Source of the DNA: Akkermansiaceae bacterium
Lineage (GTDB): Bacteria > Verrucomicrobiota > Verrucomicrobiia > Verrucomicrobiales > Akkermansiaceae
Assembly (NCBI GenBank): GCA_023301765.1
Contig: JALZUC010000060.1
Span: 1-50,969, forward strand
Direction of reading: 5' to 3'
DNA: 50,969 bases
A program made the position numbers and the translations under genes. The notes beneath the pieces are model-generated. The model was not told the origin of the DNA. It worked only from the letters and a program-made list of their open reading frames with translations, and did not search any database. The stretch's first letter is position 1. Every line of letters starts with the position of its first letter. This document shows positions 554-34,457 of this stretch, in pieces.

Positions 554-616
554 ACTAAAAAGGGAAATACCTTAGGTGTATTAGTACCTTAAGAAAGGTG
601 TAAGGCTAATGTTTTG

Positions 617-841
617 TTACTCTTCGACTTTTTTCAGAGGAGCTATTTCATTAGTTTTAGTTTCTAACTTAGTTTCTACTTCTGGTGCTGTATCTAAGGC
701 TTTGTTTTTTTCTGCATCATCACTCTCACCCGGAGAGCACTGACCTGACATTCATGTAGGGACACCAAAGGCTGGAAGAATCCAGAGCTGAAGTGCAAAG
801 TATAGGCCGACCATGCCGACGAAGATAAATATCTTTTCCAT
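617..841 (-). CDS. Candidate selenoprotein: 74-aa membrane protein with Sec30
   Basis: Reading from ATG at 839-841, one frame runs 74 codons to TAA (617-619), interrupted only by TGA at codon 30 (752-754). Residues about 3-27 form one hydrophobic segment (MEKIFIFVGMVGLYFALQ...), then GVPT-(TGA)-MSGQC, then a charged hydrophilic tail rich in Glu and Lys. If TGA is read as selenocysteine the site is U30-MSGQ-C35, a plausible redox pair just outside the membrane. A hairpin with a CGGGU loop follows the TGA by 19 nt (see 717-743). The frame, hydrophobic start and acidic tail continue coherently across the TGA, which argues against random sequence. It lies 32 nt after the truncated haemoglobin gene and before the terminator at 523-553, so it is probably the last gene of the argG cluster. 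Alternatives: a nonsense mutation, or two tiny ORFs (an ATG directly follows the TGA). I do not recognise a named family and propose no specific reaction. Confidence 0.65.
717..743 (-). promoter_or_regulatory. Putative bacterial SECIS hairpin
   Basis: Counting from the base after the TGA, nt 15-19 (CUCUC) pair with 25-29 (GAGAG) around a five-base loop CGGGU. Two G.U pairs, one mismatch and three more pairs extend the stem to nt 9-35. The loop starts 19 nt after the TGA and has G in its second position. Known bacterial SECIS elements lie inside the coding region, with a small apical loop 16-37 nt after UGA and a G in its first two bases, so the geometry fits. SelB binding is inferred. Confidence 0.55.
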
Positions 842-873
842 GTTTTTGAGTATAATCTAGCTTGGTAATTTGG

Positions 874-1245
874 CTACTGATTTTTCATATTATGCGCCAC
901 CATGGTAAAAAATGTGCGTAGATCTAGCTGAATAGACTTTGGAACATTAGTCTCATCCATAGCATCATCCATAAGTTCTAACCAGCGCACAGCTTCAGCC
1001 TCACCAATGGCAAAGGGGGCGTGCCGCATACGAAGCCGTGGATGGCCACGTTTTTCCTGATAACGGGGGTCTCTACCAAAGCGGAAGAGTAAGAAGTCGC
1101 GGAGACGCTCTTCTGCACCGACTAAGTCTTCCTCAGGATACATCGGCCCTATGAGGTCATCGACTTTAACCCGTTTGTAAAATGCTGATACCATCTTGGT
1201 AAATCCTGCTTCACCAAGGATGGTGTATATGATGGCTTCGTCCAT
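874..1245 (-). CDS. Truncated haemoglobin (group II-like)
   Basis: This 123-residue protein has the short 2-over-2 globin pattern: Tyr at the B10 position (FY22-23), the motif GHPRLRMRHAPF with the proximal F8 histidine at H75, and W88 at the G8 position in RWLELMDD. Tyr-B10 with Trp-G8 is characteristic of group II (trHbO/YjbI-like) globins, which bind O2 or NO in the cytoplasm and are linked to oxygen handling and nitrosative defence. Length is normal for the family. It lies 43 nt downstream of argG and 32 nt upstream of the small candidate selenoprotein, all on the same strand. The physiological ligand cannot be told from sequence. Confidence 0.9.
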   Translation of the reverse strand: MDEAIIYTILGEAGFTKMVSAFYKRVKVDDLIGPMYPEEDLVGAEERLRDFLLFRFGRDPRYQEKRGHPRLRMRHAPFAIGEAEAVRWLELMDDAMDETNVPKSIQLDLRTFFTMVAHNMKNQ

Positions 1246-1288
1246 TAATCGGTTATTTCTTAGTTATTAAAGGCTGCACGGCACCCTA

Positions 1289-2575
1289 CTATTCAGCTGT
1301 CTGGCGGGCAGATGCCTTGAGGCGTAGTGCATTAAGCGCAATAAAGCCAGTGGCATCATTCTGATTATACGCTTCTTCTGCTCCACCTTCCATGGTGGCT
1401 ACGTCTTCACTGTATAGGGAGAAAGGTGAACGGCGCCCAGCTTGCATACAGTTACCTTTGTAGAGCTTGAGACGAACTTCACCTGAGACGGTCCTCTGTG
1501 TGGAGGTAACTAATGCCTGTATGGCCTCACGCTCTGGCGCAAACCAGAATCCGTTATAGATTAACTGAGAGTATTTGGTAATGAGGTCATCACGCACATA
1601 TTGTGCTTCACGGTCCATTGTTAGAGTTTCTAAGTCGCGGTGTGCGGCTAGGATGATTGTGCCTCCTGGAGTTTCATAAATACCACGTGACTTCATACCT
1701 ACAAAGCGGTTCTCCACTATGTCTACTCTGCCAATTCCATGTTTACCACCAAGGAAGTTTAGCACGCGCATTACTCCGTATGGGGTAAGTAGAGTGTAGC
1801 CATTCTTTTCGCCCTGCACGGTAAAGTCACCTAGCTCGGAAATCACGGCGTCTAGCCCCTCGTATTTCAGGCCGACTATATCGCCTTTTTCAAAGAGAAA
1901 TTCTACATATTCGGGAGTATCAGGTGCTTCTTCAGGCGAAACGGAGAGCACATACATATCACGGTCAGCTTCACCGGTAGCATCATACCAGGTATCTTCC
2001 AGAGCGCCTGCTTCAAAGGAGATGTGCAGGAGATTTCTATCCATAGAGTAGGGCTTACTCTTGGAGGCTGTGACATCAATGCCGTGCTCTTCACAGTAGG
2101 CGATCATCTCTAAGCGCCCGGGGAACTGAGCTCTAAATTCATCATCACGCCATGGTGCGATCATCTTGATATCTGGTGCGAGTGCTGCCACAGAGAGCTC
2201 AAAACGCACTTGGTCATTACCTTTTCCGGTGGCCCCATGAGCGATGGCGTCAGCACCTTCCTTGATGGCGATATCGACCATACCTTTAGAAATACATGGC
2301 CGTGCGATGGATGTGCCTAATAGGTAGCGGCCCTCATAAAGAGCATTTGCCTGGAACATAGGGTAGATATAATCAGCCGCAAACTCCTCACGAAGGTCAC
2401 CGATGTAGCACTTACTAGCACCTGTGCTAAGGGCCTTTTGCTCTAGCCCATCCAGCTCCTCACCCTGGCCAACATCCGCACAGTATGCGATGATTTCTGC
2501 ATTGTATTTCTCCTTTAGCCAAAGAAGCAGGACGGAGGTATCAAGACCTCCTGAGTAAGCGACGACGATTTTCAT
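1289..2575 (-). CDS. argG: Argininosuccinate synthase
   Basis: ArgG joins citrulline and aspartate with ATP to give argininosuccinate, the penultimate step of arginine synthesis. The N-terminal PP-loop ATP-pyrophosphatase motif AYSGGLDTS follows directly after the chosen start, and family blocks such as [13 protein letters not shown] and [12 protein letters not shown] are present. The open frame extends 26 codons upstream (to 2653), but that extension (beginning MNLATHRAF) is not conserved in the family. I therefore place the start at ATG 2573-2575, giving 428 aa, slightly longer than typical (about 400). It is followed by the truncated haemoglobin and preceded by a coiled-coil membrane protein on the same strand. 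No ARG box was seen. Confidence 0.95.
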
Positions 2576-2683
2576 AATAGTGGTTGTTGAAAAATAAAGT
2601 GTATCTGCCTGAGAAGGCGTGTGGAGAAAAGCACGATGAGTGGCTAGATTCAAGACATACCTAATAATTAGGCATTCAGTCTT

Positions 2684-3193
2684 TTAATTCTCTTTCTGTA
2701 TATGAGGTTCATTTACCTCTAGGGCAGGAGTGGATTTACCAGCAGGAAGGACCTTACGCATCAGTTTTTTAAGACCTCCCTCAGCGGCTAACTCTGCGGA
2801 CTCGGCATCACGGATTGCCTTTTCCCATGCTGGGGCAAATCCTGGTGCTTGCTCACGCATCACATTGACCGCGGACTCCATGATGTGGAGCTGGCGCATC
2901 TCTGCCCGGCCTGCTTTCTGCCCTACGGTGTTGATATTTACCCGTAAGTTTTCGTTCTGCTCACGTAGTTCCTCTAGCTGACTCTCTAGCTGTTCATTAC
3001 CCTTAGAGTTTATCTTAAGCTGGGTATTGAGGTGTGTCTGTAGCTCTTTATTTTCAGTGGCGATACGTGCATTTTCACGGCGTAGCATAGTGATATCTTT
3101 ACGCATCAGTTTCCAGACCATAATGACAAGGCCAAGCCCGAGTAATAAGCCCCAAGTAAACGGCTCAGAGATGATATCGACAAAAGTTTCCAT
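2684..3193 (-). CDS. Membrane-anchored coiled-coil protein, function unknown
   Basis: This 169-residue protein has one hydrophobic segment at about residues 12-27 (FTWGLLLGLGLVIMVWKL), then a long heptad-rich helical stretch (about 35-90; LRRENARIATENKELQ and ESQLEELREQNENLR) and a less ordered C-terminus ending in a charged tail. The organisation suggests a single-pass inner-membrane protein with a cytoplasmic coiled coil, similar in general architecture to RmuC or YhcB-like proteins. I see no RmuC nuclease domain and do not assign it to a family. It precedes argG on the same strand. Confidence 0.6.
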   Translation of the reverse strand: METFVDIISEPFTWGLLLGLGLVIMVWKLMRKDITMLRRENARIATENKELQTHLNTQLKINSKGNEQLESQLEELREQNENLRVNINTVGQKAGRAEMRQLHIMESAVNVMREQAPGFAPAWEKAIRDAESAELAAEGGLKKLMRKVLPAGKSTPALEVNEPHIQKEN

Positions 3194-26331: not shown

Positions 26332-27969
26332 CTACTCTGTAGCGTGATCTCGGAATATTAAATGCTCATTCCCCTCATGAAGGACAGTGAGCATGTATTT
26401 TGATGAGAGTAGGACGACCCAGAAGTTATCTTGATCACGAGCGATCGTGCAGCCTGATGGAAGTTTAACTTGAGGCGGATCACTATCACGCCTCATCGTG
26501 TCTGGTTCCTTTTCCTCAAACCACTGCACAACGGAATACGGCGAGCTCTCAAGACGGGTTTCCACCTGATACTCTGAGATTAGGCGAGCCTGTAGAACTT
26601 CGAACTGTAGCGGACCCACAGCACCCAATAGCGGCACACGCTCAATACTTCCATGAATGTAGTATGCCTGAGCTACACCTTCCTTCATCAGCTGGTCAAT
26701 ACCTGCACGGTAGCGTTTAATATTAGTGGTATCACTATTCCGGATGTAGATAAAACATTCTGGGGTGAAGCGGGGCATCTCATTATAGACTATTTTAGGA
26801 TCGCTTGTTAGAGTGTCACCAATAAGAAAGTTATAATTACCCACGAGGGCAAGAATATCTCCAGCGTATGCAGTATCTAGAGTCTCACGGTCCTGACCAA
26901 AAAGTTTCTGCGCGTTAGCTAGCCTCACCTTTTTTCCAGAACGTTGATCTATGACCTGCATATCACGCTCAAAAACTCCGGAAACAATACGCACGAATAC
27001 TGCACGGTCTCGGTGCCGTGGATTCATATTGGCTTGGATCTTAAAAACAAAACCTGAAAAGTTCTCAGCATTCGGGTCGATCATTTCACCCTTGCTGACT
27101 CGGCCAGATGGAGGTGGTGCCATATCCAGAAAGCTTTCTAACATATTCTGCACCCCGAAGTTATTCATCGCACTACCAAAGTAGATCGGCATCTGCTCCC
27201 CTGCGAGTACTCGCTCTACATCGAGCGGCTCAGTGAGACCATCGAGCATCTCCACCTCCTGAGTCACTGTCTCGTAGAGATCATCATTAAGTATCTCACG
27301 CACTTTATCGTCCTCGATTCCGGCAACTTCAAGAGGAGCCATAAATGCCCCACGTTTAGTGCGCTCAAAAAGATTTACCTCCCCCTTCTTCCGGTCATAG
27401 ACGCCACGAAAACGTGGACCGTCACCCAGTGGCCAGTTGACTGGCGCGGGGGCTAGCTTAAGCACCTTTTCTAACTCGTCTAGTAACTCCAGCGGCGGAC
27501 GTGAGGGCCTATCCATTTTATTAATAAAAACAAAAATGGGAACTCCCCTCCTCCGACAAACCTCAAATAGCTTTAATGTCTGCGCCTCAATACCCTTACC
27601 GGCATCAATCACCATCACCGCAGCATCCACGGCAGAAAGCACACGATAGGTATCTTCAGAGAAATCATGGTGCCCAGGAGTATCCAGCAAATTTACACAG
27701 TAATCATTATATTCAAACTGGAGTACTGTAGAGGAAACTGAGATACCTCGTTCCTTTTCCATAGTCATCCAGTCACTGGAGGTTGACTGCTGTTCTTTTT
27801 TTGAAGTAACGCTCCCAGCTAAACCGATCGCCCCCCCGTAGAGTAGAAGTTTTTCGGTAAGTGTCGTTTTACCCGCATCCGGGTGAGAGATAATAGCAAA
27901 AGTTCTGCGACGAGAGCATTCTCGTGCAGCGGCGGCAGATACAGTGGTAATGGAAACTGGAGTAGTCAA
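26332..27969 (-). CDS. prfC: Peptide chain release factor 3
   Basis: RF3 is a translational GTPase that recycles RF1/RF2 from the ribosome after peptide release. The 545-residue protein has G1 SHPDAGKTTLTEKLL, G3 DTPGHHDF and G4 FINKMDRPSRPPLELLDE. The RF3-specific domains II and III follow (FVFKIQANMNPRHRDR; GAVGPLQFEVLQARL). About 18 N-terminal residues precede the usual RRTFAIISHPD start of the family. It lies 50 nt upstream of the sulfatase start on the same strand, which is probably fortuitous. Confidence 0.96.
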   Translation of the reverse strand: MTTPVSITTVSAAAARECSRRRTFAIISHPDAGKTTLTEKLLLYGGAIGLAGSVTSKKEQQSTSSDWMTMEKERGISVSSTVLQFEYNDYCVNLLDTPGHHDFSEDTYRVLSAVDAAVMVIDAGKGIEAQTLKLFEVCRRRGVPIFVFINKMDRPSRPPLELLDELEKVLKLAPAPVNWPLGDGPRFRGVYDRKKGEVNLFERTKRGAFMAPLEVAGIEDDKVREILNDDLYETVTQEVEMLDGLTEPLDVERVLAGEQMPIYFGSAMNNFGVQNMLESFLDMAPPPSGRVSKGEMIDPNAENFSGFVFKIQANMNPRHRDRAVFVRIVSGVFERDMQVIDQRSGKKVRLANAQKLFGQDRETLDTAYAGDILALVGNYNFLIGDTLTSDPKIVYNEMPRFTPECFIYIRNSDTTNIKRYRAGIDQLMKEGVAQAYYIHGSIERVPLLGAVGPLQFEVLQARLISEYQVETRLESSPYSVVQWFEEKEPDTMRRDSDPPQVKLPSGCTIARDQDNFWVVLLSSKYMLTVLHEGNEHLIFRDHATE

Positions 27970-28267: not shown

Positions 28268-29842
28268 CTACTGTTTCTCCTTTGTTCCACCGCGTCCTTT
28301 AAATTTGATATTAACCCATCCCAAGGGCTTCCCTTTAGGGACAGTCCTCTGTTCCCTCTCAAGCAACACAGAGAGTTCCGCAACCACCTCTGGATGATCT
28401 CTGTAAACATTCTTCCTCTGCTGCAGATCATTAGTAAGGTTATATAGTTGTGCCTTAGGTGCATTTTTATACAGCTTTCCATTCACTATATCGCTATGCT
28501 CTTTCCCCATAAAGGTCGCAGCAGCCTCACCTCCTAGCAAGTGATCACCGACCTTGTCACTCTGAAATCCACCTTCACCTTGGCGTGGAATGTATACCCA
28601 GTTACCCTTCCTGATAGAGAGGTGTAGAGGGCTATTTGGACATATCACTAAGGTATCCCTAACCGCTGTCTCGGGAGTTCCCGTAAGAGTTTCTAGCTGA
28701 TTCAGGCTATCCGCCGGATCAACTAGCACCTCACCAACAATCTCTGCAAAAGTAGCCAGTAAATCGACATGACTAATCAAGGCATCTGACACCGTATTAG
28801 CAGGAATTTTCCCCGGCCAGCGCACGATCATGGGAATTCGGTGCCCTCCTTCCCACGCTCCAAACTTGGCACCTAATAGATTACCATTAATTTGGTGCCC
28901 CTTTTTTACAGCACGTTGACCTTCGAGGTTTAGCATTCCACCATTATCACTAGTAAAAATAAAGACAGTATTCTCAGAGACACCGTGCTCTTTAAGCGCC
29001 TCCATTAGCTGGCCAGTCATCCAGTCTAACTCATGGGTGAAATCACCGTAGTCGCCAACCTCACTAGTACCTACAAATTTTTTATCCGGGGTAAATGGGT
29101 GATGAATATTAGTCGTAGAGAGCAGGAGAAAAAATGGCTTCTCCTTGTCCCTTTCCTCCAGCCACTTGATAGATCTTTCCGTAAGATTAACGCCAATTTT
29201 ATCATCAACGTAGAGATCATGAGCCACCTTACCGCCTCCAATCCGCCCGGCGCCCTTACCCTCCATTGTTTTGGTGTGTTTTTCACCTCCCGTTTTGATT
29301 GGGTCTTCAGGGTCTATACCAACAACACGATGGTTTTCTACATAAACAAACGGGCACACACTATTCGCGCAAGGAATACCATAGAAGTAATCAAAGCCCA
29401 ACTCAAGTGGACCTGGTTTTAAATCATCATTCCAATTAGGCCTCTTATCACCAAAGCCAAGGTGCCACTTGCCAAAAAACGCCGTCTGATAGCCCGATTT
29501 CTTAAGTAAACTAGAAATTGTTTCGCGATCAGTGTCGATGGTAAGAGCTCCTCCATTCGTCACAGGCCCCCAAAAGTTCTTTCGATGTGGGTAGCGTCCC
29601 GTCATCTTTCCATAACGTGACGGAGAGCATACTGCAGAAGCTGAGTGCGCATCTGTAAACTTCCTCCCCTGAGAGGCTAACTTATCAATATTCGGAGTTT
29701 TCAGCAGCTTTGCGCCATAGCAGCTCAGATCTCCGTATCCTAAATCATCTGCAAAGACTAAAACGATATTAGGTTTTTCAGCAGAAAAAGCCGCGTGGGA
29801 TAGGACTAAAACTAAACAAGTAATTGAGAAAGGACGCCTCAT
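28268..29842 (-). CDS. S1-family sulfatase (secreted)
   Basis: A 524-residue arylsulfatase. The frame stays open to 29878, but ATG 29840-29842 gives a clean signal peptide (MRRPFSITCLVLVLSHAAFSA), so I use it. It has the metal site FADDLGYGDLSCYG, formylglycine motif CSPSR (C72-R76), GKWHLGFGDKRPNW and TSDNGGMLN. The usual C-terminal small domain is present. It lies 51 nt downstream of the Sec-redoxin gene on the same strand. Sulfatase maturation requires an oxidised cysteine, so the neighbouring secreted redox protein is suggestive, though no functional link is shown. Confidence 0.92.
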   Translation of the reverse strand: MRRPFSITCLVLVLSHAAFSAEKPNIVLVFADDLGYGDLSCYGAKLLKTPNIDKLASQGRKFTDAHSASAVCSPSRYGKMTGRYPHRKNFWGPVTNGGALTIDTDRETISSLLKKSGYQTAFFGKWHLGFGDKRPNWNDDLKPGPLELGFDYFYGIPCANSVCPFVYVENHRVVGIDPEDPIKTGGEKHTKTMEGKGAGRIGGGKVAHDLYVDDKIGVNLTERSIKWLEERDKEKPFFLLLSTTNIHHPFTPDKKFVGTSEVGDYGDFTHELDWMTGQLMEALKEHGVSENTVFIFTSDNGGMLNLEGQRAVKKGHQINGNLLGAKFGAWEGGHRIPMIVRWPGKIPANTVSDALISHVDLLATFAEIVGEVLVDPADSLNQLETLTGTPETAVRDTLVICPNSPLHLSIRKGNWVYIPRQGEGGFQSDKVGDHLLGGEAAATFMGKEHSDIVNGKLYKNAPKAQLYNLTNDLQQRKNVYRDHPEVVAELSVLLEREQRTVPKGKPLGWVNIKFKGRGGTKEKQ

Positions 29843-29893: not shown

Positions 29894-31168
29894 TCATTTC
29901 TTCAGAGTAATCTCAATATCCTGAGCCAGGAACTGGCAGGTATGATCAGTCTTGGTGCAGACGTAATAGAATGCTGAGGCGTTGAATGACTCGGGAAACT
30001 TTTCCCCTGCTTTGGGGTGAAGCTCAAACTCGATCACTCGCGTCTCTGAGCTACTTTCCTCCTGAGGGAGTTTGGGGATTTTTAAATCCTGAATCTCGAG
30101 GCCTGAATCCGGTGCTAAATGGAAACTAATATTCCCTGCGTCATTGTTCCATGTGGTATTAGGAGCTGGCTGGAGTGTGAGATGCACTCGCACAGCTGGC
30201 TTTCTCTTGTTTGTAGAGGTTACGATGACCGTGCGGTGAGTAACAAGAGCCTTGGTATCGCGTGAGACCTTACCTTCAGGATCTGGGTGTTTCTGCGCTG
30301 AGGTATTGTTTTCCCTATTACTACGTGAGGGAACGGCAAATTCCGCCCCGGATGGCTCGGCCACTAGTGGGTGTGGTTTTCCCCCACGTTTCGTTATATC
30401 TACGCGGGCTCTATTCACCCAGTCATAGAATGAGTAGGGCTTATCAAGACGAGGCCCGTATTGCTGGATTCGTCTGCGCCAGATGTATTGATTAGGGTTC
30501 AGAGCCAAGGCCTGCTCCCAGTGTGCCATGGCTTTAGAAAAATCATTGGGTGCTCGTTTATCTGAATCAAAACGCATACGATAAGCTACCCCTAGACGGA
30601 AGTGGGCAGAGCCATTCTTAGGCTCTGCAGTCAGGATCTTCTCCAGAGCAGGGATCTTCTTGGGCAGAAGATTGATGGACTGGGTTTTAGCCTTGTTAGG
30701 ATACTCGGCAGCTAAAAATTCCTGTAGATCGTTTGGCCGAGGATTACGGTAGCGAATGATACCGTGCTCATCAATGAGGAGAGTGATAGGCACAGCGGAA
30801 ATACCCAAATCATTATAAGGATCAGCTAGCACTGGCCAGTCCATCTTCTGCCACTCCATATAAAGAGCGGCACGATCAGGATGCTGCTCTTGCACGATGC
30901 CTGCTATGCTGAGTTTACCTGTATCTACAAGTTTCTTAGTTTGCTTATGCCAGCCTGGCACATGTCTGCGGCAGCCTGCTCACCATGAGGCATAGAGGTG
31001 GAGCATAAGCTTCTTATCTGTGAGCGTAGAAATAGACTTTTTCTCACCATTAGTGATGGAGGGTAAGTTAACGTCAGGAAAACGGTCTCCCAGCTTAAGA
31101 GAAAAAGCACCCGAGGCTGCGGAGATCACAGCCAGAGTGAAAAGAAAATAATACAGCAAAATTTTCAT
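29894..31168 (-). CDS. Candidate selenoprotein: secreted thioredoxin-fold (redoxin) protein with UxxC active site
   Basis: One frame from ATG 31166-31168 to 29894 encodes 424 aa if TGA at codon 63 (30980-30982) is read as selenocysteine. Residues 1-21 form a signal peptide. The thioredoxin/AhpC-TSA domain (about 24-160) starts LKLGDRFPDVNLPS, then LHLYASW-(TGA)-AGCRRHVPGW: the TGA sits precisely at the first catalytic cysteine, giving U63-A-G-C66. The cis-proline loop follows (AVPITLLID, P127). Residues about 175-250 resemble TPR helices; the last 120 form a beta-rich domain ending with YYVCTKTDHTC. Both flanking segments are in the same frame, so no frameshift is needed. A short hairpin with a GGC loop starts 17 nt after the TGA (30946-30962). 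Alternative: a nonsense mutation, which would also have to hit the catalytic codon by chance. It is probably a periplasmic thiol oxidoreductase. Confidence 0.8.
30946..30962 (-). promoter_or_regulatory. Putative bacterial SECIS hairpin in the redoxin gene
   Basis: Seven consecutive pairs (UGUGCCA with UGGCAUA, one G.U) close a three-base GGC loop at nt 25-27 after the TGA. If the last A-U opens, the loop reads AGGCU, close to the AGGUCU loop of the E. coli fdhF element. Distance from UGA to loop is 24 nt, within the known 16-37 range, with G in the first two loop positions. SelB recognition is inferred. Confidence 0.65.
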
Positions 31169-31328: not shown

Positions 31329-34300
31329 ATGAAAACCAGCCTCTTTTTTACCTTACTTCTCACCATTTACGCTCAAGCCACCGAGCCGATCACTGTCTCA
31401 AAAAACGATAACATCGTATTCCTCGGAAACGGCCTAGGCTCCCGCATGATGCAGTATGGCATATTTGAAACCTTTGCCCATATTCTCTATCCTGATAAAC
31501 ATCTAGTCATCCGTAACATGTGCGATGAGGGGAACACACCAGGTTTCAGGCCTCACTCATCACGTCCCTCACCGTGGGCTTTCTCTGGTGCGGAAAAGTT
31601 CCACCCACCACTTTCTAAAACAACAGATCGCTGGGGATCTAAACAAACAGGAAACGGAAGTATGGAGACTCCCGACCAATGGCTGACACGTCTAAAGGCG
31701 GATACCATCATTGCTTTCTTCGGCTTTAACCAATCTTTTAATGGTCAGGCTGGGCTAGAGAACTTTAAGGGAGAGCTACGCGCGTTTATCAAACATACCC
31801 GTGCTCAGAATTACAACGGCAGCTCCGCTCCACAGCTAGCCCTTGTCTCCCCTCTTGGATACGAGGACGCCAGCACTGAGCGCGAGCGTCTAGTGGATGC
31901 TAATCTAGAACTCTACACCGCCGCTATGGATCAAGTAGCAAAAGAGGAGAATGTGCTTTTCATCAACTGCTATCAACCTTCCCGAAGATGGTTCCAACAG
32001 AAGAAAAAACTCACGCGTGACGGAGTCACTCTGAATCTCACTGGCTACCAGCTCCTGAGTAATCTTCTCACTGAGAAAATTTTTGGTTCAACACCCAATG
32101 CTGTAGGTGGTAAAAATACCCTGACTGCAGTTCTTGAAAAAAACTGGGTCTGGGAAAAATTCTACAAAATTCCTAACGGCGTGCATGTCTACGGTAAGCG
32201 CCACCGCCCATACGGAACAGAAAATTACCCCTCTGAGCTCAAGAAACTAGAGGAAATGACCTCTAATCGAGACCAAGCCATCTGGGCCACACTCGCAGGA
32301 AAAACCTTCGACCTAGCAGCCGCAGATGCACAAACGACAAAGCTCGCAAATATCAAAACCAACTACAAACCTAGTAAGCAAAACGGCTCTACCAAATACC
32401 TCTACGGCCAAGAAGCCATCGATTCTTTTACCACAGCCCCAGGTTATAAAATCGAGCTCTTTGCCTCTGAAAAAAAATTCCCCCACTTAGCCAATCCGGT
32501 GCAAATCTCCTTTGATAATAAAGGACGTCTCTGGGTAGCTACCATGCCCAGTTACCCACACTGGAAACCTGGTGATGCCAGACCTTCTGATAAGCTGATC
32601 ATCCTAGAAGATACCAATAACGATGGTAAAGCAGACAAGGAAACCGTCTTTGCAGAAGATCTCCACCTCCCTACTGGATTCGAACTCTCACACGATGGTG
32701 TGTATGTGGCGCAAGGTAATCACCTAATCCTACTGAAAGATACTAACGGTGATGATAAAGCGGACCACCGCGAAATAGTTCTGAGCGGATTTGATGACCA
32801 TGATACCCATCACGTGATCAGTGCCTTCTGTGCAGATCCATCTGGTGCCATCTACATGGGTGAGGGCACCTTCCTGCACTCCCATGTGGAAACTACTCAC
32901 GGCCCTGTTAGATCATCTAATGGCGGTTTCTTCCGTTACTCGCCACAGCGAAATCAGCTAGAACGCACCTCACGTATCTCCATTCCTAACCCATGGGGCA
33001 CAGCATTTGATGATTACGGGCAGCCTTTTTTCCTAGAAACATCAGATTCTGATCTACACTGGATGACTCCCTGTAACGTTAATGTGGACTACGGCCAGAT
33101 AGCACCGAAGCCCATCACCATGTTAGAAAAATCACACCGCGTCCGCCCTACCTCCGGACTTGAGTTTGTCTCTAGCCGCCATTTCCCAGATTCAGTTCAG
33201 GGCGATATCCTCATTAACAATACCATTGGATTTCTCGGCACAAAGCAGCATCAAGTCATCGACTCTGATGCTGGCTATAAAGCCAAACACCGGCACGATC
33301 TAGTAACATCCAAGGACGGAAACTACCGCCCTGTAGATCTAGAATTCGCCCCAGATGGCTCCCTCTATATGGTGGACTGGCACAATGTACTTATTGGCCA
33401 CATGCAGCACAGCGCTCGTGACCCACTGCGTGATCACAAGCACGGCCGGATCTACCGCATCACCTATCCAGCACGCAAATTGGTAAAACCTGCACATATT
33501 CATAATGCATCTCTTAGCACCCTGTTTAAAAACCTAACAGTCCCTGAGTATCGCACTCGCTACCGCACACGCCGTGAGCTCCGTGGCCGCTCAGCTGATG
33601 AGGTGATTCCAGCTATAAAAAAATGGGTGAAAACCCTAAACCGCAAAACCCCTCGCTATGAGCAAACACTGCTCGAAGTCCTCTGGGTCACCTGGGGGCT
33701 GGAGCAAGTAAGTGAGCCACTTCTCAAAAACCTACTTCAAGCGAAAGACCATAGTGTCCGTGCCGCCGCCATCGAGGTGCTACGCCACTCAACTCAGCAT
33801 ATTTCCAATCCAGCTGCACTATTGAAAAAAACAGCCACGGACTCATCCGCCCGTGTCCGCCTCCAGACGGCGGTGGCGGCCTCGTGGTTACCTGCTGATG
33901 AAGCTCTCCCAGTGCTTAACGCCGTAAAACCTCTAGATCCATGGATTAAGCCAGTTGTGACCACCGCCAAGGCTCAGCTAGAAGGCAAAATTATCGCTGG
34001 AGATGCTCCTGAGAAACTGCACAAACCTACTACTCCACTCACAGGTGAAACTCTCGCCTTATTTAAAAAGGGATCAGAAGTTTACTCCCGTGAAGGTCAC
34101 TGCATCACCTGCCACCAGCCAGATGGAGGCGGGCTACCAGCAGCGATGTTCCCTCCTCTCAACAAAACCAAATGGGTAAATGAATCTGCAGATCGCCTAA
34201 TCAAACTCACCATGCATGGGCTGATGGGGCCGATAGAGATCAAGGGGAAAAAATACCCAGGCCAAGTTCCTATGACGGCGTTTAAAGCGCTCAGTGATGA

Positions 34301-34457
34301 GGAAATGGCCGCTGTCCTCACCTATGTTAGAAATACCTTTGGGAACTCTGCGCCAATGATTAGCCCCACGAAGGTGAAAGAAGTCCGTGCAGCAACCAAG
34401 AATAAGCAAGGCTTCTACTCACCTGATGAGCTCCTCAAGGATCATCCACATCAGTAG
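31329..34457 (+). CDS. PVC-type haem-binding CxxCH protein (SGNH-like N-terminus, dehydrogenase propeller, HEAT, cytochrome c)
   Basis: A 1042-residue secreted protein. A signal peptide (about 1-18) is followed by a GDSL/SGNH-like domain (about 25-270; NIVFLGNGLGSRM). The membrane-bound-dehydrogenase-like beta-propeller (about 365-720) begins APGYKIELFAS and contains FDNKGRLWVATMPSYP, VDYGQIAP and FAPDGSLYMVDWHN. HEAT-like helices (about 730-880) precede a C-terminal cytochrome c with GHCITCHQPDGGG (C925, C928, H929) and a later Met-rich DEEMAAVLTYVR. This fused plan is characteristic of Planctomycetota and Verrucomicrobiota and proposed to act in sugar oxidation. It is divergent from the Sec-redoxin gene, with 160 nt between starts. 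The substrate is unknown. Confidence 0.92.
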   Translation: MKTSLFFTLLLTIYAQATEPITVSKNDNIVFLGNGLGSRMMQYGIFETFAHILYPDKHLVIRNMCDEGNTPGFRPHSSRPSPWAFSGAEKFHPPLSKTTDRWGSKQTGNGSMETPDQWLTRLKADTIIAFFGFNQSFNGQAGLENFKGELRAFIKHTRAQNYNGSSAPQLALVSPLGYEDASTERERLVDANLELYTAAMDQVAKEENVLFINCYQPSRRWFQQKKKLTRDGVTLNLTGYQLLSNLLTEKIFGSTPNAVGGKNTLTAVLEKNWVWEKFYKIPNGVHVYGKRHRPYGTENYPSELKKLEEMTSNRDQAIWATLAGKTFDLAAADAQTTKLANIKTNYKPSKQNGSTKYLYGQEAIDSFTTAPGYKIELFASEKKFPHLANPVQISFDNKGRLWVATMPSYPHWKPGDARPSDKLIILEDTNNDGKADKETVFAEDLHLPTGFELSHDGVYVAQGNHLILLKDTNGDDKADHREIVLSGFDDHDTHHVISAFCADPSGAIYMGEGTFLHSHVETTHGPVRSSNGGFFRYSPQRNQLERTSRISIPNPWGTAFDDYGQPFFLETSDSDLHWMTPCNVNVDYGQIAPKPITMLEKSHRVRPTSGLEFVSSRHFPDSVQGDILINNTIGFLGTKQHQVIDSDAGYKAKHRHDLVTSKDGNYRPVDLEFAPDGSLYMVDWHNVLIGHMQHSARDPLRDHKHGRIYRITYPARKLVKPAHIHNASLSTLFKNLTVPEYRTRYRTRRELRGRSADEVIPAIKKWVKTLNRKTPRYEQTLLEVLWVTWGLEQVSEPLLKNLLQAKDHSVRAAAIEVLRHSTQHISNPAALLKKTATDSSARVRLQTAVAASWLPADEALPVLNAVKPLDPWIKPVVTTAKAQLEGKIIAGDAPEKLHKPTTPLTGETLALFKKGSEVYSREGHCITCHQPDGGGLPAAMFPPLNKTKWVNESADRLIKLTMHGLMGPIEIKGKKYPGQVPMTAFKALSDEEMAAVLTYVRNTFGNSAPMISPTKVKEVRAATKNKQGFYSPDELLKDHPHQ

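Follow-up and report, generated by a model that had tools for sequence, protein, structure and literature searches.

A predicted selenoprotein that joins a ResA-like UxxC domain to an nDsbD-like domain in an Akkermansiaceae bacterium

Does an in-frame TGA that coincides with the first catalytic residue of a thioredoxin site encode selenocysteine (Sec), and if so, what would the resulting protein do? The question is raised by a gene on the minus strand of a 50,969-nucleotide stretch of DNA (contig JALZUC010000060.1, referred to throughout as the window). The source is an Akkermansiaceae-type Verrucomicrobium whose genome of 2.46 Mb is assembled in 68 contigs and is 97.8% complete. The read-through frame occupies 29894-31168 and encodes 424 residues; it begins with an ATG at 31166-31168, passes through an in-frame TGA at 30980-30982 (codon 63) and ends with a TGA at 29894-29896, which is a true stop. 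The local sequence, YASW-U-AGC, puts the internal TGA where a W-C-x-x-C thioredoxin site has its first Cys, as both the sequence and the homologue column indicate. The second catalytic residue of the UxxC, Cys66, is encoded by a TGC at 30971-30973 and is invariant in the homologue alignment. A preliminary description of the locus had claimed a single frame through the TGA with redoxin homology on either side of it, and both points are borne out: the codon coordinates and the homologues agree on the frame, the Pfam matches cross the TGA, and the homologues are conserved on both sides. It had also anticipated that annotation would break the gene in two, and ORF calling with table 11 indeed yields a 62-aa ORF (30980-31168) and a 355-aa ORF with a GTG start (29894-30961). 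By standard annotation every gene of the family would be halved in this way and its active site hidden.

Homologues were collected with queries in which Cys was put at the site, or with peptide patterns located away from it; neither the patterns nor the profile carried a requirement for U. The family is present in Verrucomicrobiota, Planctomycetota, Acidobacteriota, Gemmatimonadota and Armatimonadota, and a scan of viral contigs returned no relatives. Among 97 distinct sequences scoring >200 bits, 92 cover the site, and all 92 have TGA in this column and none Cys, which excludes a chance origin of the in-frame TGA. The U-x-G-C spacing is likewise found in all homologues examined. The other five were counted as not covering the site. 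One of them, from Gemmataceae (L091, near 5100), does carry the TGA and, five codons downstream of it, a TAG (AGCR-TAG-HVP); it is taken as a damaged copy or an assembly error. The homologue tree is weakly resolved, with 16 of 36 inner branches supported and the window's row 35% filled.

The preliminary description had proposed a search for selA, selB, selC (tRNA-Sec) and selD, and all four are present in the genome. The tRNA-Sec scores 57.6 bits, above the Rfam cut-off, with the anticodon read as tca by ARAGORN; SelB, SelA and SelD score 301, 509 and 376 bits, and SelD itself contains an in-frame TGA (SCAG-U-ASK). In the bacterial family from which the window comes, selA is found in 11 of 12 gene-positive genomes versus 70 of 260 overall (P 3e-6, relatedness ignored), and the single gene-positive genome without it is a 72% complete assembly. 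SelB is above the cut-off in 44 of 50 genomes with other homologues. In two Phycisphaerales loci (L065 and L083) the gene lies directly downstream of selB-selA-tRNA-Sec (selC), and in a Verrucomicrobium (L067) directly downstream of selA-selB. Apart from these sel genes, no fixed gene neighbours are seen among the relatives examined.

These data bear on two ways in which the gene might be something other than a selenoprotein. A nonsense mutation, a pseudogene or a sequencing error could leave a TGA at this position, and the assembly that contains the window is indeed a draft, in 68 contigs; given that the same TGA recurs in every site-covering homologue, with the frame intact on either side, and that the genome holds the full Sec machinery, we regard this explanation as extremely improbable. 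It is equally hard to credit that UGA has been reassigned to another residue, since the window gene and several homologues terminate in TGA, the site requires a redox residue, and a tRNA-Sec with the tca anticodon is present.

A hairpin with a GGC loop had been noted 24 nt after the TGA. A SECIS-like hairpin does lie at 30946-30962 on the minus strand (UGUGCC-AGGCU-GGCAUA), with a 6 bp stem in which all six pairs are formed and a 5-nt loop, AGGCU. The UGA is separated by 18 nt from the five innermost pairs of the stem, and the first loop base is the 24th nt after it. The homologues have the same six-pair stem and a loop of five bases, often CGGGU, GGUCU or CGUGU. In 53 sequences, 96.2% of cells are paired and three pairs show compensatory changes; the covariation score is reached by 0 of 500 shuffles, and sliding the register by 1-3 columns brings pairing down to 20-56%. 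Because the stem sits within coding sequence, we used a null model in which synonymous codons are randomised by each gene's own usage. The observed pairing of 97.3% compares with 86.3 ± 1.0% under this model (maximum 89.3% in 1000), and all six pairs occur in 80 of 92 homologues versus 30 ± 4 under the model, although the sequences are related and these figures are not strict probabilities. When 66 nt of the window copy are folded alone, z is +0.66 and the minimum is a different fold, such that the hairpin is not preferred. The hairpin is present and conserved across homologues, as claimed, but single-sequence folding gives no signal for it; its conservation goes well beyond codon constraint, and the case for it rests on comparative evidence.

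The machinery, the TGA column and the conservation of the hairpin support the proposal of a selenoprotein with Sec at a UxxC site. Indeed, the gene almost certainly encodes a real selenoprotein, and the comparative evidence indicates that the UGA at codon 63 is decoded as selenocysteine via the downstream hairpin and the selA, selB, selC and selD products of the genome.

It had been suggested that aligned homologues might show Cys in place of the TGA. Homology across the column is conserved, but replacement by Cys is never seen in full-length homologues. Profile searches found no full-length Cys form in 388 Verrucomicrobiota, 392 Planctomycetota, 347 Acidobacteriota or 260 same-family genomes; these sets overlap partly and come to roughly 1,400 in all, and the Verrucomicrobiota sample contains few carriers. 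The Cys-bearing matches score about 60 bits and are TlpA-like proteins of a generic kind. On this sampling, the family appears to be Sec-only. The deep-Sep paper states that nearly all selenoproteins have many homologues with Cys (PMC12013277). Sec and a C-terminal Cys pair, described below, are found together in every readable relative across five phyla, which suggests that selenium is required for function. The family would be a clean case for studying why a reaction depends on selenium and not on sulfur. A genome of the same order holds another exported thioredoxin-like frame, with the site FAASW-U-GPC (L044, G040:C1:3392763-3393182).

The features of the protein were assigned by Pfam, by structure prediction and by fold comparison. 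An AlphaFold2 model built with 46 homologues (pLDDT 93.2, pTM 0.90 for the full length) consists of a signal peptide, a thioredoxin fold, about five TPR-like helices and a beta domain. A putative Sec-type signal peptide takes up residues 1 to about 21 (31106-31168, minus strand; MKILLYYFLFTLAVISAASGA), the model shows a helix at 2-18, and N-termini are hydrophobic in nearly all homologues in which the start is present; from these features we infer export to the periplasm. The ResA/TlpA-like thioredoxin (redoxin) domain spans residues 26-147 (30728-31093, minus strand). It is matched by Pfam Redoxin PF08534 (residues 26-147, E 6e-11, 42.7 bits, cut-off 26.6) and AhpC-TSA PF00578 (residues 27-140, 42.3 bits, cut-off 26), with E about 1e-10 for the pair, and its best Foldseek matches are 2ls5, 3gl3 (DsbE) and ResA. 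The site itself, W-U-A-G-C-R, does not contain the PxxxTxxC/U peroxidatic motif of peroxiredoxins. A TPR-like helical linker follows at residues 172-260 (30389-30655, minus strand), as judged from the helices of the model and from weak TPR matches that are found in 40 of 46 family members. Besides the active site, this linker is the best-conserved stretch of the alignment, and it contains a hallmark, IWRRRIQQYGPRLDKPYSFYDW, at residues 229-245 (30434-30484).

The C-terminal domain, residues 303-424 (29897-30262, minus strand), could be identified only by fold comparison, as Pfam and the PDB sequence profile both failed. Pfam DsbD_N (PF11412) has no match in the window protein and matches 2 of 46 members weakly (best E 0.005, below the cut-off), and a sequence-profile search of the PDB returned no relative of the domain. 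Predicted alone by AF2, the domain has a pLDDT of 96.2, and Foldseek ranks 1-8 are all nDsbD. VIA-align gives ScsB at Z 9.8 (110 residues, 2.9 Å), nDsbD at Z 9.4 and adaptin ears at Z 8.3. We therefore assign the domain a probable nDsbD fold (Ig-fold, DsbD alpha-like/ScsB-fold), a match made on a predicted model at about 10% identity, with adaptin-ear domains scoring nearly as high. In the model, a Cys pair is located in the last beta hairpin of the domain, where nDsbD has its active site: C404 (29957-29959) and C411 (29936-29938), together spanning 29936-29959 on the minus strand. In E. coli, the active-site pair of nDsbD is C103 and C109 (C-x5-C). C404 and C411 are invariant in both homologue alignments, and a C-x5 to 7-C pair is found in 82 of the 82 homologues that reach the C-terminal end. 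The TPR-like and beta-rich C-terminal extension of the preliminary description is supported, and its beta-rich part can be specified further as an nDsbD-like domain in which a Cys pair is invariant. A Sec-less paralogue from Pirellulaceae (L154, G644) has W-S-A-N-C at the site, so that Ser stands in place of Sec, and neither of the C-terminal Cys is left. This joint loss, a single natural case, suggests that the two sites cooperate.

The genome contains one DsbD (DsbD_N plus TM domain; L183, G000:C33, about 22.3 kb, frame 601-3120, minus strand). In this protein, too, a TGA is read through at the first catalytic position, here of the C-terminal thioredoxin domain (DYTADT-U-LIC), and it is probably also a selenoprotein, judging from its sequence. 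We consider it fairly likely that the window protein reduces disulfides in the periplasm, with electrons moving between its Sec/Cys thioredoxin site and the Cys pair of its nDsbD-like domain, and with DsbD as the probable supplier. In the ResA-like domain, Sec63/Cys66 would catalyse fast disulfide (selenenylsulfide) reduction in the periplasm, and the nDsbD-like domain would be the redox partner permanently attached to it. Electron transfer between Sec63/Cys66 and C404-C411 would resemble that between the DsbD gamma and alpha domains, and the TPR-like segment would fix the arrangement of the two domains and perhaps bind a client. Membrane DsbD would be the likely electron source, as suggested by its presence in the genome, where it appears to be a selenoprotein.

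Since the DsbD of the genome also has a read-through UxxC, both ends of the proposed electron chain appear to be Sec-dependent. More tentatively, the protein may be a soluble "mini-DsbD" that exists only with Sec and is made up of a Sec-thioredoxin, a TPR-like brace and an nDsbD-like domain. Together with the Sec-containing DsbD it would make up a reducing chain in the periplasm, with electrons carried by selenium at successive steps, and no Cys version of the protein would be viable; we hold this larger proposal to be possible rather than probable. If it is true, the lack of a viable Cys version would mean that the family ties its hosts to selenium, and would help explain the retention of selA/B/C. 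The partner domain and DsbD are candidates that can be tested in vitro.

Two other readings accept the selenoprotein and differ on its chemistry. The protein could have Prx-like peroxidase activity, with Sec reducing peroxides and the C-terminal Cys pair resolving or recycling it. The best family matches are Pfam AhpC-TSA/Redoxin, Prx-like UxxC selenoproteins are known (PMC1088965), and a gene for a Prx-like selenoprotein lies directly upstream in a genome of the same genus (G013). We nonetheless judge this activity unlikely, because W-U-x-x-C followed by R is the arrangement of ResA/DsbE/TlpA and not the PxxxTxxC/U of peroxiredoxins, the closest structures are DsbE and ResA, and dithiol exchange is the role of nDsbD domains. 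Alternatively, the C-terminal domain could be an Ig-like domain for ligand binding in which C404-C411 is a disulfide with a structural role only. The protein would then serve a specific client, such as a c-type cytochrome or an extracellular enzyme, as its reductase or maturation chaperone. Structural disulfides are common in Ig-like folds, adaptin ears are among the matches of the C-terminal domain, and a TPR segment suggests protein binding; however, the two Cys occupy the position of the active pair in nDsbD and do not vary across five phyla, and both are lost along with Sec in the Pirellulaceae paralogue, so that we find this reading improbable.

Several known systems resemble the protein in part. 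ResA, TlpA and CcmG (DsbE) share the fold and the site of its N-terminal domain but have a single redox domain and use only Cys. DsbD (alpha and gamma domains; E. coli, Neisseria) likewise combines thioredoxin-fold and Ig-fold Cys-pair domains in one protein, the latter being found also as the N-terminal domain of ScsB. In comparison with DsbD, the window protein has no membrane domain, reverses the order (thioredoxin first), has Sec at the active site and contains a TPR-like linker. The class of UxxC redoxin selenoproteins is already known (PMC1088965, PMC2398784, PMC9312934, PMC13188914). The Prx-like UxxC selenoproteins share an AhpC/TSA-like domain and the UxxC with the window's family, but they have Cys homologues (2,740 and 2,608 for Prx-like 1 and 3 in an ocean survey; PMC1088965, PMC2398784), while none was found here. 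A "Redoxin family protein" (PF08534, UxxC) is entered in prokaryotic selenoprotein inventories (PMC13188914, 2026, representative HEU0032618.1; PMC9312934, MBA3499694.1), and it may include the protein family described here. In the available parts of these inventories it appears by name only, without architecture, partner domain or absence of Cys forms. In the literature searched, we came across neither an account of the Sec-thioredoxin/TPR/nDsbD-like architecture nor any mention of a lack of Cys forms.

The best NCBIfam match, at 60.6 bits, is NF041054 (ResA-like WAxxUGC motif-containing protein, WAxxUGC_long), which also has a ResA-like Sec thioredoxin domain; its curated cut-off of 300 is not reached by the window protein. 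Its motif, WASW-U-G-C, has one residue between Sec and Cys, whereas the window's family has two (U-x-G-C). Three of the loci collected here (L157, L158 and L159) form a sister family with WASW-U-GC, a TPR-like segment and a KQIW...W motif. By their motif these would belong to NF041054; they have an extra N-terminal region and, in the copies examined, no nDsbD-like C-terminal domain.

Several neighbouring genes were also noted. In the same-genus genome G013, a second TGA gene, encoding a Prx-like AhpC/TSA protein with the site SRAHW-U-PFC (L022:968-1501), is directly upstream of a 70%-identical orthologue; the window is without this gene. About 50 bp downstream of the selenoprotein gene, on the same strand, is a sulfatase gene (28268-29842, minus), and divergently upstream is a gene for a large GDSL/DUF7133/HEAT/cytochrome c (heme-binding-type) protein (31329-34457, plus); both are absent beside the relatives examined. 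Two genes downstream of the UGA-recoded gene, the window encodes peptide chain release factor 3 (RF3_C domain; 26332-27969, minus), a proximity that is probably a coincidence.
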